From Microvenator marinus (GTDB taxonomy: Bacteria > Myxococcota_A > Bradymonadia > Bradymonadales > Bradymonadaceae): 64,000 nt of DNA. The DNA lies in assembly GCF_007993755.1 (NCBI RefSeq), contig NZ_CP042467.1:496001-560000 (forward strand). The letters are read 5' to 3'. The notes below the pieces were generated by a model. It was not told the origin of the DNA. It ran no database searches and saw only the letters and a list, made by a program, of their open reading frames with translations. Positions 28,055 through 33,770 of the stretch are shown in pieces. A program made the translations under genes and the position numbers. The first letter of the stretch is position 1, and each line of letters starts with the position of its first letter.

Positions 28055-28831
28055 ATGTCGCGACCAAAATCATCTTCTCCCTCACTCGCCAACGGCGGCG
28101 TGTGGTGGCCTCAACGCCGCGACATGGTGCCTCCACAAGACCTGAAGGTAGATGTCGTCATTCCAGCGCTCAATGAAGAAAAGAGTATCGGTTTGGTCCT
28201 CGACGCTATCCCAAAGGGCTGGGTTAGACGCGTCATCGTCGTGGACAACGGAAGCACGGATGAGACGGCTCAGAAGGCGAAGGATGCTGGCGCCGAGGTC
28301 ATCTTTGAAAGTCGAAAGGGATATGGTTCGGCCTGCCTCGCTGGCCTTGCATTCGCGCGCCTCAATCCCCCAGATATCGTCGTCTTCTTAGACGCGGACT
28401 TCAGCGATAATCCCGCCGAGCTACCAAGACTCATCGAACCTATCCTGGTCCGCGATGCGGAGATGGTGATCGGCTCGAGAACCATCGGACCCAGACAACG
28501 GGGGGCGCTCCTTCCACAAGCGGTCATGGGCAACAAGCTCGCGTGTACTCTGGTGGAGTTTCTATTCGACTACCATTTTTCGGATCTCGGCCCGTTTCGT
28601 GCCATCACCTGGGAAGCCTTAGAACGAATGAGCATGCGCGATCCCGACTTCGGCTGGACCGTAGAAATGCAGGTTAAGGCAGCCCGCCTCAAGATCCCAT
28701 CGGTCGAGGTGCCAGTCAGCTACAAGAAGAGGGTAGGGACCTCAAAAATTACCGGCACCGTCAAAGGCACGGTGCTCGCCGGATACAAGATCCTTTATAC
28801 GATTTTCGCGCACGCTGTGGACGACGAATGA
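28055..28831 (+). CDS. Family 2 glycosyltransferase
   Basis: The 258-residue protein has the GT-A fold motifs of dolichyl-phosphate-mannose-synthase-like enzymes: V-V-I-P-A-L-N-E-E, V-D-N-G-S-T-D-E-T, F-L-D-A-D-F-S-D-N-P and E-M-V-I-G-S-R. It would transfer a sugar from a nucleotide donor to a lipid or polyol acceptor; the substrates cannot be told. There are no C-terminal membrane helices. ATG 28055 is chosen because AAAGG lies seven bases upstream and earlier in-frame starts fall inside the divergent purM gene. It overlaps the next gene by ATGA, and the pair probably acts in one pathway. Confidence 0.88.
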   Translation: MSRPKSSSPSLANGGVWWPQRRDMVPPQDLKVDVVIPALNEEKSIGLVLDAIPKGWVRRVIVVDNGSTDETAQKAKDAGAEVIFESRKGYGSACLAGLAFARLNPPDIVVFLDADFSDNPAELPRLIEPILVRDAEMVIGSRTIGPRQRGALLPQAVMGNKLACTLVEFLFDYHFSDLGPFRAITWEALERMSMRDPDFGWTVEMQVKAARLKIPSVEVPVSYKKRVGTSKITGTVKGTVLAGYKILYTIFAHAVDDE

Positions 28832-29508
28832 AAGAAGTCGTGGTTTTTGCAAAAGCGCCCGTACCGGGAAAGGTTAAAACTCGCCTCGCTGCGACGGTCG
28901 GTCCTGATACCGCCGCTAAAGGGCACCGAGCATTTATCTCAGACCTTCTCACAATGCTCGGTGGTTTGGACGCCAAGACTGTGCTTGCGGTTGGGTCGAA
29001 GGCTGACCTTGACCACGACGCATTTCAAAACCTGGGAGACGTAGAGATCGTGGTGCAGCCAGAAGGTGATCTTGGAGAGAGACTCTCGGAGATCACTCGA
29101 TTGAGATTTGACGGCGGTGCTTCCAGAGTGCTCCTGATTGGTACCGATAGCCCGACCCTCGGTCGACTCCAGATTGAAAATGCGTTCGACGCACTCCAAA
29201 CGCACGAGGTAGCCCTCGGTCCAACTTTCGATGGTGGCTACTATCTATTGGGGTTGAAGAAATTCAACGAGCATCTTTTTAAGGGCATTCCGTGGTCGAC
29301 TTCGGAGGTGGCGAATGCCACTCTCGATGCCCTCATCAACCAAGAATTGAGTGTTCAAATTCTTGAGTATTGGTACGATGTGGATACAAATGAAGACTTA
29401 AGATTTCTTAGGTTTCAACTTAAGGCGTTTCTGTGCGATGATTCTCGCACGGAGCCTTTACCTCAGGCCACAATCGCGTGGCTTAATGAGCTTGATCAAA
29501 GGCATTAG
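28828..29508 (+). CDS. TIGR04282/DUF2064-family glycosyltransferase-like protein
   Basis: The 226-residue protein matches the nucleotidyl/glycosyl-transferase-like family typified by the N-terminal V-V-V-F-A-K-A-P-V-P-G-K-V-K-T-R-L, followed by L-I-G-T-D-S-P-T-L and L-G-P-T-F-D-G-G-Y-Y-L-L-G. Members are often found next to a family 2 glycosyltransferase, as here, and some are linked to arsenosugar synthesis; no arsenic-related gene is visible in the window, so that role is not claimed. Start and stop overlap with the upstream gene (ATGA) point to co-translation. Confidence 0.87.
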   Translation: MKEVVVFAKAPVPGKVKTRLAATVGPDTAAKGHRAFISDLLTMLGGLDAKTVLAVGSKADLDHDAFQNLGDVEIVVQPEGDLGERLSEITRLRFDGGASRVLLIGTDSPTLGRLQIENAFDALQTHEVALGPTFDGGYYLLGLKKFNEHLFKGIPWSTSEVANATLDALINQELSVQILEYWYDVDTNEDLRFLRFQLKAFLCDDSRTEPLPQATIAWLNELDQRH

Positions 29509-29529: not shown

Positions 29530-30168
29530 TTGGCGACGAAAGGCAAGGATTCAGAAAAGGGCGTTACTTCTTGTGCGGCCGGTACTGTTCTCTTTAAAGA
29601 GGGTGAAACAGGCACGAAGATGTACGTCATAAAGTCTGGGCGCATTCGGATGTCCAAACGCGTTTTCGATACCGACGTTACAGTGGAAGAGCTTGGTGCC
29701 GGTGATTTTTGCGGCGAGATTGCGCTGCTGAACGAACAACCTCGGCCGACCACCGCTACGGTATTGGCGGACGCCACGGTGATTCAAGTTGACGCCGCAC
29801 AGTTCGAAAACATGATTCGAAGCAATTCGGACATCGCTGTCAGAATGCTCAAGAAGATGTCTCAGCGACTTATTCAGTCACAGTTTCGGCTCTCAAACTT
29901 TGCGCTCAGGACCACAAAAGGCCGACTTCTCCACCAGCTTCGCGCTGAATCTAGCGTCGCTGGAGGAAAGCCCTCTCCAATTCCAGACAACCTTGTGGAT
30001 GTTCTGGGACTGGAACTTGGCGAGATCAAGGTCCTGCTTTCCGAGTTCGTCAAAGACGACCTCATCAGCATCGATAAGCGCGGGTTCTTCACCATTACCG
30101 ACCCTGTGGCGTTCGATCGGTATCTGAAATATCTCGAACTCAACGACCACTTCGAATTCAGAAATTAG
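29530..30168 (+). CDS. Crp/Fnr-like cyclic-nucleotide-binding protein with atypical DNA-binding helix
   Basis: The 212-residue protein has a cyclic-nucleotide-binding beta-roll at about residues 15-125, including the phosphate cassette F-C-G-E-I-A-L-L-N-E-Q-P-R. A long dimer helix and a winged-helix-like C-terminal domain follow. In that domain the recognition helix reads L-G-L-E-L-G-E-I-K-V-L-L, without the Arg-Glu pattern of Crp. It may therefore bind a different site, or no DNA. TTG 29530 is supported by GAGG six bases upstream; no good ATG lies near. It follows the sugar-transferase pair by 21 bases and precedes folC by ten. Confidence 0.82.
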   Translation: MATKGKDSEKGVTSCAAGTVLFKEGETGTKMYVIKSGRIRMSKRVFDTDVTVEELGAGDFCGEIALLNEQPRPTTATVLADATVIQVDAAQFENMIRSNSDIAVRMLKKMSQRLIQSQFRLSNFALRTTKGRLLHQLRAESSVAGGKPSPIPDNLVDVLGLELGEIKVLLSEFVKDDLISIDKRGFFTITDPVAFDRYLKYLELNDHFEFRN

Positions 30169-30178
30169 GTTCAAAGTA

Positions 30179-31381
30179 ATGGCCGACCCTTGGCGTGCGT
30201 TTTCAACTCGCCTCTTCGACCAGAACCTCTTTGCCGTCAAATTGGGCCTCCAAAACATGCGACTGGCGCTCGACTTGGAAGGTTCTCCAGACAAGGCGCA
30301 AGCTGCAATCGTGGTGGGTGGAACCAACGGAAAGGGTTCGGTTTCTGCACTTCTCTCCAATATTTTGGAGGCCCATGGGCTTAAGTGCGGACTCTACACC
30401 AGTCCCCACCTCATCGAAGTCCGTGAACGCTTCAGAATCAATGGTGCGCCGGTATCTCGTGAACAAACCATGCGGGTGGGAAAGCAATTGCTGCAAAAGT
30501 ACGGCCGGCCCGACGCGACGCCCTGTCTGACGTTTTTTGAACTCACCACATTGATGGCAGCCAAGATCTTTGAAGAAGAGAAGGTGGATGTCGCGATCTG
30601 GGAGGTTGGACTTGGCGGAAGACTAGATGCGGTAAACACCATCGAGCCAGCTCTTACCGTGATTACGACGATTGGACTCGACCATCAGGAATACCTCGGA
30701 AACACAATCCCGCTGATATCGCTCGAGAAGGCTGCACTCGCCCGCAAGGGCATACCGACGCTGATTGGCAGACAGGACCACGAGGACGCGCGACAGACGC
30801 TCCTTGAAGCCATTCCGGACGCCATAGAAGTGCCATGGGTCGAAGACGAAGCAGATTTTAGACAACGCCATATCTCAACCGCCACGCTCGCTGCGCAAAC
30901 CTATTTGGGCGACCGGTTTGATGCCGAAAAAGCTCAGAGTGCGGTGTTACGAACGCGATGGCGTGGCAGACTAGAATCCTTGGAAATCAACGGAGCCACC
31001 TGGCTCATCGATGGGGCACACAATATTGACGGTGCTCGCCATTTTGCCGCTTTCATGCGGCACTACGAGCCAGATACCTTCTTGATTGGTGCGATGAAGG
31101 ACAAGGACCTCGAAGGCGTCTTTGGATGGCTGAAGAGGCCGCCTTTCGAGTCAATCCCCATCGTCAGCGCCACGCTGAAGACACAACGCAGCGCTCAAAG
31201 CGACCAGATAAGGTCCACACTCGACCGAGCCATACACTTCGAGTCTTTGGAAGAAGCCCTCGAAGAGATTCGAGAGAACGGCTTCGGAAAGATTGCGGCG
31301 TTCGGGTCGCTCTACCTTGTCGGTGAGCTATTGATGGAATTGGGTTTGAGTTCGGAAGACCTGACGACATGGAAGGACTAA
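30179..31381 (+). CDS. folC: Folylpolyglutamate synthase / dihydrofolate synthase
   Basis: FolC adds glutamate residues to folate (and to dihydropteroate in bifunctional members), using ATP. The P-loop G-G-T-N-G-K-G-S-V lies near residues 47-55, with T-S-P-H-L at 75-79 region, E-V-G-L-G-G-R-L-D-A and G-L-D-H-Q-E-Y-L-G in the Mur-ligase-like core. The C-terminal domain has D-G-A-H-N. The protein is 400 residues, normal for the family. The stop codon TAA at 31379-31381 abuts the stop of the opposite small gene with no intervening base. Confidence 0.94.
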   Translation: MADPWRAFSTRLFDQNLFAVKLGLQNMRLALDLEGSPDKAQAAIVVGGTNGKGSVSALLSNILEAHGLKCGLYTSPHLIEVRERFRINGAPVSREQTMRVGKQLLQKYGRPDATPCLTFFELTTLMAAKIFEEEKVDVAIWEVGLGGRLDAVNTIEPALTVITTIGLDHQEYLGNTIPLISLEKAALARKGIPTLIGRQDHEDARQTLLEAIPDAIEVPWVEDEADFRQRHISTATLAAQTYLGDRFDAEKAQSAVLRTRWRGRLESLEINGATWLIDGAHNIDGARHFAAFMRHYEPDTFLIGAMKDKDLEGVFGWLKRPPFESIPIVSATLKTQRSAQSDQIRSTLDRAIHFESLEEALEEIRENGFGKIAAFGSLYLVGELLMELGLSSEDLTTWKD

Positions 31382-31594
31382 CTAGGGTGTGCCAACCACC
31401 TCGATCCCGAGATTTCGACACGTAAAGAGAAAGACCTCAAGTTCCGCCTCACCAAAATGTTCGGGGGGAAGCGCCTGAGAAATCTCCGTCCAGCTCAAAG
31501 TACCTTGCTCGATCCCTTGGCGCAGGAGTTCACGCTTTCGGCCGTGAAAGTCATCATCATCTGGCATTTCAAAGGTCTCGTCGGGTTGCATCAT
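31382..31594 (-). CDS. Stand-alone sigma70 region 1.1-like protein
   Basis: The 70-residue protein resembles the N-terminal region 1.1 of primary sigma factors: a helix with R-K-R-E-L-L-R-Q-G, then G-T-L-S-W-T-E-I-S-Q-A-L-P, and ending R-N-L-G-I-E-V-V. In RpoD that region occupies the DNA channel and blocks free sigma from promoters. Here it stands alone, behind an acidic tail (D-D-D-D near the start), with no other sigma domain. It could act as an RNA polymerase or sigma modulator (inference). ATG 31594 or 31591 follow GGAG; a TTG at 31642 is less likely. It is preceded by the terminator of the gene above. Confidence 0.72.
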   Translation of the reverse strand: MMQPDETFEMPDDDDFHGRKRELLRQGIEQGTLSWTEISQALPPEHFGEAELEVFLFTCRNLGIEVVGTP

Positions 31595-31664
31595 AAGCTC
31601 CAATCTCGCCCTTTGGATGCTTCGTGGCGCCCGTGGATTCAAGTAGTGCCAAAAAGCGCAAGAA

Positions 31665-31697
31665 CAAAAAAGCCACCCAGGTTGGCTGGGTGGCTTT
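31665..31697 (-). terminator. Intrinsic terminator of the lipoprotein gene 31719-33770
   Basis: AGCCACCCAG (31671-31680) and CTGGGTGGCT (31686-31695) form a perfect 10-bp stem with a 5-base loop. On the minus strand the hairpin is followed by a run of T (A-run 31666-31671 on the plus strand). It sits 22 bases beyond the stop codon at 31719. Confidence 0.85.
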
Positions 31698-31718: not shown

Positions 31719-33770
31719 TTAGAATCCGGTTCTGTTTCCGCTGAAGGTACCGTCAGTCTCAATGATCGTGTCTTGAGAGATACGGATCTTCACGTCCCAC
31801 TCACAGAGCATCGAGTCGGTTCCGAGACCGTCAATGTATGGAAGTGGCTTGCCGATCCAAGCTCCGGTGTACGCCTCTGGCTCGACGAGCTTACATGGCG
31901 TGCCAGTTGGCGTAGCGAGAAGGAAATTGTCTTCGCCAGAGATCGTGAGGTTTTCCGTCAGGAATTCACGAATTCCATCGGACGCCGATTCAAGCAGACT
32001 TTCGCAAAGGTTACGTGCAATCGTTTCAACGCTGCTGCCGATGTTATCGACCATAAAGTCCGCAAACCCCTGACATCCAGTTGTTCCACCTGGAAGCACC
32101 AACAAGAGGAGTTCGTTCAACGCCGCCTCCAATGAGGTCACAGTCGGTCCAAAGATCGAAGGAAGTACCACTTGTTCGATGATTCCCAAAATGAGTACAC
32201 CGTAGTTCAGTGCCAGTGTGTGCTCATTGATAATCAAACCAAAGCCGGTTTCACCCTCACCAGTAAGCGGAACCACAGTTCCTGTGAAAGAGCCCTCCAC
32301 AACGGACGAGGTTGCACCGAGGTCAGTCGCGCTGAATGTTCTCTCGCGACAAGCAGCTGGAGCCGAGGATGCACAATCACCTGTCCAATAGACAATGATA
32401 TCCTCCCAAACCTGCTTACCAGGGCGGTTGCCGTCTTGGTCAGCATTCAAGAGGCCAACCACTGTGTTGGTTTCCGTGTCCAGTGTTGGATCAGGCTCAC
32501 GCTCAATCCGAATGATGCCGTTCACCCTGAACTCTTGGAGTGACTCGTAGATATCAGCGGTAATGTCGATTCCACCCTTCACCCAATCTGGCGCGTTGTT
32601 TTCGATCCATGTTGCAAAGAATTCGTTGAGCGCGTCTCTCCCAAGGTTCTGAATCAAACTGTTGCCCAAGAAGGATTCAATTGCTCCTTTGAGAGTTCCG
32701 AGGATGCCGTCATCTGGTAGGAAGTCTACGATCAACCCGATGATTCCAGTGTCTCCACTGCCTTCTCCCAAGATAAAGCTCGCCGGGTCTGTAGCGAGAC
32801 GGCCGATGAGATCGATGGCCAAGCAGACTCCGCTTGGAAGCACACCAGCGTAGCCGCCATTCGGCTGCGGATCACAAATGGCGTCCGTGATGCTGAAGGT
32901 GTGGGTCACATCAAAGGATCCTTTCAAACGCGGAAGATGGTCCTCAAGTCGAACGATGACGTTGACCGAGTTGCCGTTCTCGATTGGAGGATTGGAATCT
33001 GTGCAACCAAAAGCGAGTTCTACTTCGCCGTCATCTCGAGACATCGCTTGAGCTGCCACGTTGAAAGATTGTCCGTTGCTCAAGCCTGGGAAGACCACGA
33101 GAGGCAAGGTTCCGTCTACGCTGGCAACACCATTCGCGGTGTACTCGGCAGTCAACACAGGATTGGTGGAAGCGTCGTCATCTCTTTCTCGTGCGATATC
33201 CTCTCGGATTGCGTCGCAGCTATCTTCAGCCTTGTACAAGAAGACTTTGATATCTCTAAGGGATGCCGTTCCAGCGTGCTCGAAAGTCACCGAGTAACTA
33301 GCTGAGTCTTTAGGCTGTACACCGGCGACAAACTTAATTGGAGCAACTGACGTATCGCCAGGAAGTGACACAATCACTTCAGCCGCACCTGTGGCTTGTC
33401 CAGCTCGAATCTCGACTTGAGCAACACCGTCGGAATTCGTCTGCGCAGAGGCGGCGTTAAGTGAGGTGCCTACCGCCAGACCGACACTGAGTTCATAACG
33501 AACAGCCGCGCCAACAACGGGTGCACCGTTGCCATCAATGACGCGAACCTGAAGCGGGGCAGAGGAGTTGAAGGTCACGTCGACCTGACAGTTTACCTGT
33601 CCTGCACACTGGCCCGTGTGTTGAAGTTTCGACCCCATGGGAATCGGAACATCCACACCCGGAGGTGTGGTCATGTTATTGGGAGATGTGCCGACGGTAT
33701 CGTCACCACAGGCGGCTCCGAAGAGCAGCAAACTTGCGACTAATGCGCTTGAAAGGCGAGAAATTGACAT
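31719..33770 (-). CDS. Large lipoprotein with Ig-like region (paralogue of the gene at 894-2657)
   Basis: The 683-residue protein has a lipoprotein signal with G-A-A-C21, an Asn/Thr/Pro linker and an Ig-like segment at about residues 65-150 (V-V-G-A-A-V-R-Y-E-L-S, then G-V-A-Q-V-E-I). The long C-terminal part is of unknown fold. It parallels the lipoprotein at 894-2657 in order of motifs: V-F-L-Y-K-x-x-x-S-C-D, then Y-W followed by a Cys pair, then H-T-L-A-L-N-Y-G and conserved Cys residues near the end. AGGAG lies seven bases before the ATG. A terminator follows. Function unknown; a surface-exposed protein is likely. Confidence 0.72.
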   Translation of the reverse strand: MSISRLSSALVASLLLFGAACGDDTVGTSPNNMTTPPGVDVPIPMGSKLQHTGQCAGQVNCQVDVTFNSSAPLQVRVIDGNGAPVVGAAVRYELSVGLAVGTSLNAASAQTNSDGVAQVEIRAGQATGAAEVIVSLPGDTSVAPIKFVAGVQPKDSASYSVTFEHAGTASLRDIKVFLYKAEDSCDAIREDIARERDDDASTNPVLTAEYTANGVASVDGTLPLVVFPGLSNGQSFNVAAQAMSRDDGEVELAFGCTDSNPPIENGNSVNVIVRLEDHLPRLKGSFDVTHTFSITDAICDPQPNGGYAGVLPSGVCLAIDLIGRLATDPASFILGEGSGDTGIIGLIVDFLPDDGILGTLKGAIESFLGNSLIQNLGRDALNEFFATWIENNAPDWVKGGIDITADIYESLQEFRVNGIIRIEREPDPTLDTETNTVVGLLNADQDGNRPGKQVWEDIIVYWTGDCASSAPAACRERTFSATDLGATSSVVEGSFTGTVVPLTGEGETGFGLIINEHTLALNYGVLILGIIEQVVLPSIFGPTVTSLEAALNELLLLVLPGGTTGCQGFADFMVDNIGSSVETIARNLCESLLESASDGIREFLTENLTISGEDNFLLATPTGTPCKLVEPEAYTGAWIGKPLPYIDGLGTDSMLCEWDVKIRISQDTIIETDGTFSGNRTGF

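Follow-up and report, generated by a model that had tools for sequence, protein, structure and literature searches.

The window analysed here is a stretch of 64,000 nucleotides of the Microvenator marinus genome (NZ_CP042467.1, positions 496,001 to 560,000 of the forward strand). It carries a small gene between folC and a gene for a predicted lipoprotein, and the features of the locus, in window coordinates, are as follows.

28828-29508, plus strand: gene for a DUF2064 protein (PF09837, 105.5 bits), part of the conserved neighbourhood
29530-30168, plus strand: gene for a CRP-like cyclic-nucleotide-binding-domain protein upstream of folC (PF00027, 78 bits), part of the conserved neighbourhood
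30179-31381, plus strand: folC, folylpolyglutamate/dihydrofolate synthase (TIGR01499, 270 bits)
31382-31594, minus strand: the small gene, encoding the stand-alone sigma region 1.1 protein (70 aa, 8.0 kDa, calculated pI 4.27)
31391-31534, minus strand: codons 21-68, homology to region 1.1 by Pfam, AlphaFold and Foldseek
31535-31594, minus strand: codons 1-20, N-terminal tail and start of helix 1, acidic and poorly ordered
31595-31668, minus strand: leader of 74 nt between the lipoprotein terminator and the ATG, with GGAG at 31598-31601 and a putative promoter
31669-31697, minus strand: intrinsic terminator of the upstream lipoprotein gene (12-bp perfect stem, 5-nt loop, T run)
31719-33770, minus strand: gene for a predicted lipoprotein (683 aa) in which one stretch weakly resembles Big_1, the conserved neighbour on the far side from folC

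The small open reading frame starts with the ATG at 31594, has a second ATG at 31591, ends with the TAG at 31382 and encodes the 70-aa protein MMQPDETFEMPDDDDFHGRKRELLRQGIEQGTLSWTEISQALPPEHFGEAELEVFLFTCRNLGIEVVGTP. An earlier note on this DNA had credited the gene with a start signal of its own, and the ATG together with the GGAG ribosome-binding site just 5' of it bears this out.

The earlier note had also described the product as a 70-residue protein resembling only the N-terminal domain of sigma70, and all lines of comparison agree with this description. PF03979 (Sigma70_r1_1) matches the protein with 27.0 bits (E 4.5e-6), above the curated cut-off of 22.5 bits, aligns residues 21-68 with model positions 8-55 of 81, and is the sole Pfam family that matches at E<=1; the 20 family members that were scanned all match it at the same threshold (best E 5.9e-10). 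In a profile-profile comparison, the small family aligned with RpoD 1.1 domains over 57 columns with a probability of 98.3% (E 2e-14), which excludes the lack of a profile match that the note had named as the outcome speaking against its claim, and against PDB chains the convincing matches of the small-family profile were all to RpoD/SigA (best E 1.3e-5). An AlphaFold2 model built on an alignment of 20 orthologues has a mean pLDDT of 82, mostly above 90 in the core and below 50 in the disordered residues 1-11, and predicts helices at residues 16-30, 35-41 and 49-61 and strands at 32-34 and 65-67, i.e. the three-helix fold with short strands of solved sigma 1.1 domains. With this model, Foldseek ranked SigA (9a58) and B. 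subtilis sigma 1.1 (5mww; rmsd 1.7, TM 0.68, probability 1.00) first, followed by E. coli sigma70 in holoenzyme, so that structure prediction, too, leads to sigma 1.1 domains as the best solved matches. A domain of ~50 residues cannot be expected to give strong Foldseek E-values, and those obtained are weak (0.03 to 0.6), so that the claim is carried by the Foldseek ranking and the sequence evidence together.

Thus, the small protein belongs to the same sequence family and has the same predicted fold as region 1.1 of group 1 sigma factors (PF03979; RpoD/SigA; structures 5mww, 2k6x and the E. coli holoenzyme), and the core G-x3-G-x-L-S/T-W/Y-x-E-I/V-x3-L-P is common to both. Unlike region 1.1 of RpoD/SigA, however, the members of the free family are separate proteins of 67-84 aa (105 aa in one member) with their own start site; they lack sigma regions 1.2-4, have a less acidic core and carry a conserved signature of their own (KRELL, ExExxLFT). 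In the window, regions 1.2-4 are absent from the 70-aa frame, which is bounded by its own stop codon and by folC, and the protein is therefore not a group 1 sigma factor.

The window genome (5.85 Mb, one contig) encodes an intact RpoD, a 595-aa frame with its own region 1.1 (77.9 bits), at ~2.67 Mb of contig G000:C1 and ~2.1 Mb away from the small gene. The earlier note had allowed that the small frame might be the start of a frameshifted full-length sigma gene; this is excluded by the stop codon of folC at 31381, which abuts that of the small frame, and by the separate intact RpoD. Among 17 matches to sigma region 2 in this genome, RpoD is the only one with region 1.1. PF03979 also weakly matches two other frames, at chance level: one of 661 aa, which encodes a ribonuclease-like protein, and one of 263 aa, which encodes a sigma factor of ~260 aa. 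More generally, a truncated rpoD fragment, a pseudogene or a chance frame would fit the short length of the gene and nothing else, and we consider such an origin extremely improbable in light of the separate intact rpoD and of orthologues that are under strong purifying selection, form a single clade and have conserved synteny.

These orthologues are present in 23 of the 26 genomes of the order Bradymonadales, which has been placed in the Myxococcota as an order of facultative predators (PMC11509652), and in one genome outside the order, G031, from another family of the same class. Within the order they occur in 19 of 21 genomes of f1, the family of the window genome, and in four of five genomes of the second family, f2. 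No free region 1.1 protein was found elsewhere among 379 Myxococcota genomes, and no relatives were found in the phages, plasmids and viral contigs searched; short-frame candidates outside the class (G364, G067 and G095) are RpoD genes cut by contig ends or Ns. Within genus g9, dN is 0.006-0.018 and dS 0.60-0.77 (dN/dS about 0.01-0.03), and pN>=pS was found in 0 of 136 pairs of free-family members. In a tree of 50 region 1.1 domains, which has few columns and an unknown root, a single branch separates the free proteins from the RpoD domains (99/99), and the free proteins are thus not repeated recent truncations. Residues K20, E22, E51, F57 and T58 are specific to the free family and differ from those conserved in RpoD 1.1. 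The survey of homologues proposed in the earlier note therefore reveals an old and conserved family: free sigma 1.1 proteins are real and, within the searched set, are confined to the Bradymonadales and one neighbouring family. In total, sequence, fold, phylogeny and conservation support the identification of the window protein as a free-standing sigma 1.1 domain. The domain as such is already known and annotated in Pfam; among open-access papers we found none on a stand-alone region 1.1 family.

In 21 relatives, including G031, the small gene lies directly 3' of folC on the same strand (the gaps that were measured are 30-120 nt), and in most cases a terminator and the convergent lipoprotein gene come next. 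In the window genome alone, the small gene is reversed between the same neighbours and converges on folC with 0 bases between the two stop codons. Relative to the 21 other genomes, there is an apparent one-gene inversion of window positions 31382-31668, and the simplest reading of this arrangement is the inversion of one gene that took its leader along. A phase-variable inversion was considered and rejected: the only inverted repeats are those of the terminator stem and a pair of 8 nt within the gene, and none flanks it. The description of the gene as lying alone and downstream of a terminator consequently holds in part, as the terminator is there and the isolated position does not extend beyond the window genome to the relatives, in which the gene follows folC. 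Because the small gene lies behind the lipoprotein terminator, its expression would depend on a promoter in the 74-nt leader or on read-through of the terminator; no sigma-70 consensus site was found in this leader. As a separate observation, 11 of 18 leaders contain the extended -10-like motif GTGNYTANNTT, 39-83 nt 5' of the start, compared with 0.04 expected in shuffled sequences, a contrast that is overstated since the pattern was picked after viewing the leaders. The motif is possibly a promoter form of this order; the window leader is without it.

The conserved linkage to folC, which extends to G031 outside the order, raises the question of whether the fold has been repurposed to a target other than RNA polymerase, e.g. 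a partner in folate or stress physiology tied to folC, and the family-specific signature, distinct from that of RpoD 1.1, would suit such a change of target. However, G025 and G021 show a lost or loosened linkage, and the window genome has the gene in reverse orientation, implying that co-transcription with folC is not required, and many leaders of the small gene have a promoter-like motif of their own. On balance, we regard a repurposed fold as distinctly unlikely.

A review portrays sigma 1.1 as a negatively charged DNA mimic when in the holoenzyme and as an autoinhibitor when in free sigma (PMC4598750). In the free family this charge is much reduced: paired in 18 genomes, the mean net charge of the core is -1.8 for the free domain and -6.9 for RpoD 1.1 (Wilcoxon p 2.5e-4, with rows that are not phylogenetically independent). 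The window protein has a net charge of -3 in the core and -7 in the tail. Many members have an acidic N-terminal tail; the tail is not acidic in G001, G025 and G020, and the G001 member has a net charge of +3 and a pI of 9.2. The free family has thus retained the region 1.1 fold, while the charge has not been retained uniformly.

These data bear on the suggestion in the earlier note that the protein could be a DNA-mimicking inhibitor or competitor of polymerase loading. Of this suggestion, the homology to region 1.1 stands and the mimic charge is weakened, as the core means and the positive G001 member illustrate. An inhibitor of RpoD-dependent transcription acting in trans would compete with RpoD 1.1 for the channel or bind the DNA-binding domains of free RpoD. 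In favour of such a role, the homologous domain has been described as an autoinhibitor that mimics DNA in the channel (PMC4598750), and the window protein is itself acidic (pI 4.27). However, the core charge is greatly lowered across the family, the family-specific residues do not coincide with the conserved ones of RpoD 1.1, and inhibition is not a necessary role for a highly constrained protein whose gene is kept in nearly every genome beside a housekeeping gene; we therefore rate an inhibitory role as rather unlikely. DNA-mimic inhibitors of RNA polymerase of the T7 Ocr type (PMC7064336) are likewise small, and competition with DNA or sigma for the polymerase has been demonstrated or suggested for them. 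The free family differs from them in that it has no sequence match to them, is chromosomal and vertically kept, lacks relatives in phages or viral contigs, and shows weak charge mimicry.

Another parallel in architecture is the N-terminal domain of the Firmicute delta subunit (RpoE), which is also free-standing and combines a sigma 1.1-like fold with an acidic disordered tail; the domain binds outside the channel, on the beta' jaw/shelf, and the separate acidic tail competes in the channel (PMC7749165). By analogy, the free 1.1 domain might dock on the beta' jaw/shelf with its acidic tail toward the channel, favouring nucleic-acid release and sigma exchange. The nearly neutral core and, in many members, the acidic disordered tail are in line with such a mode. 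On the other hand, none of 20 members matches HARE-HTH (PF05066) at E<=1, no delta chain is among the 50 Foldseek matches listed, and the tail, of ~10-20 residues and not acidic in three members, is very short and N-terminal, whereas that of delta is long, C-terminal and highly charged (net -47, PMC7749165). Moreover, the two proteins come from different phyla, and we think a delta-like mode fairly improbable. The window genome also has a 493-aa frame with two HARE-HTH domains (G000:C1, ~1774352-1775224, minus strand), which by its size is not a delta-like subunit.

A second RpoD-like sigma factor is encoded outside the window (G000:C1, ~1078155-1079777, minus strand), by a 561-aa frame with regions 1.2-4 and no region 1.1. 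It has orthologues in 18 of the 19 f1 genomes with the small protein, the exception being G004, a fragmented assembly, and it is also present in G021, G022, G025 (as a fragment) and G031; it was not found in G023. Both genomes of genus g5 lack the small gene as well as the second sigma, a joint absence that counts as one event and concerns incomplete assemblies, with a completeness of 84 and 87%; in one of them, G006, the folC-adjacent site is empty and folC is directly followed by a convergent histidine-kinase-like gene. In families f3 and f4 of the class, an RpoD-like sigma without region 1.1 is present and the free domain is absent, showing that the second sigma does not need a free region 1.1 everywhere. 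Immediately before region 1.2, the N-terminus of the second sigma contains a conserved short basic motif, D[FL]IxxRxxRR, in most f1 orthologues.

By homology, RNA polymerase or sigma is the likeliest target of the free 1.1 protein, and action in trans on RNA polymerase is plausible. Tentatively, we favour a model in which the protein is a trans-acting initiation factor that works at or near the sigma 1.1 site of RNA polymerase for sigma factors without region 1.1. In this model, the free 1.1 protein would (i) bind RNA polymerase in trans and tune promoter opening, (ii) sit at or near the position of sigma 1.1 at the mouth of the main channel, where the acidic N-terminal tail may supply part of the negative charge, and (iii) serve holoenzymes whose sigma lacks region 1.1, chiefly that of the second RpoD-like sigma. 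Binding to RNA polymerase, its site, the sigma served and the direction of the effect are all inferred. Several points count against this model: the small gene adjoins folC and not a sigma gene, f3 and f4 have such a sigma and no free 1.1, the joint absence in g5 amounts to one event, and the low core charge does not suit simple DNA mimicry. Compared with competition with RpoD, a role as partner is at least as favoured, given that most genomes with the small protein also encode this second sigma and that g5 lacks both.

A stricter version of such a partnership would be a split primary-type sigma, in which the free 1.1 protein is an obligatory trans subunit of a second sigma that lost or never had region 1.1, and in which its level gates the genome-wide use of that sigma. 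Together, the group 2-like second sigma and the free 1.1 domain do cover all domains of a group 1 sigma factor. The two are, however, encoded at different places on the chromosome, and a split of one from the other is unsupported: the N-termini of the second sigma in f1-f4 contain no visible trace of region 1.1 that would indicate a recent split of the small gene from it. We hold the obligatory version to be quite doubtful; if true, it would be a kind of sigma subunit without description in the literature found.

Returning to the initiation factor in trans, a normally built-in part of the RNA polymerase machinery probably works as a free protein in the Bradymonadales, judging from sequence comparisons. 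Region 1.1 is built into primary sigma factors, where its role as gatekeeper is difficult to disentangle from the other parts of sigma. With a separate region 1.1 beside an intact RpoD, the action of the domain could be titrated, deleted or swapped directly, and the free family would join delta as the second case in which this fold serves RNA polymerase as an independent factor.

Region 1.1 also occurs in an unusual setting in RpoD of family f5 (G028 and G034), in which it is followed by an insertion of ~600 residues rich in Lys, Asp, Glu and Ala before region 1.2, giving frames of ~1210 aa.
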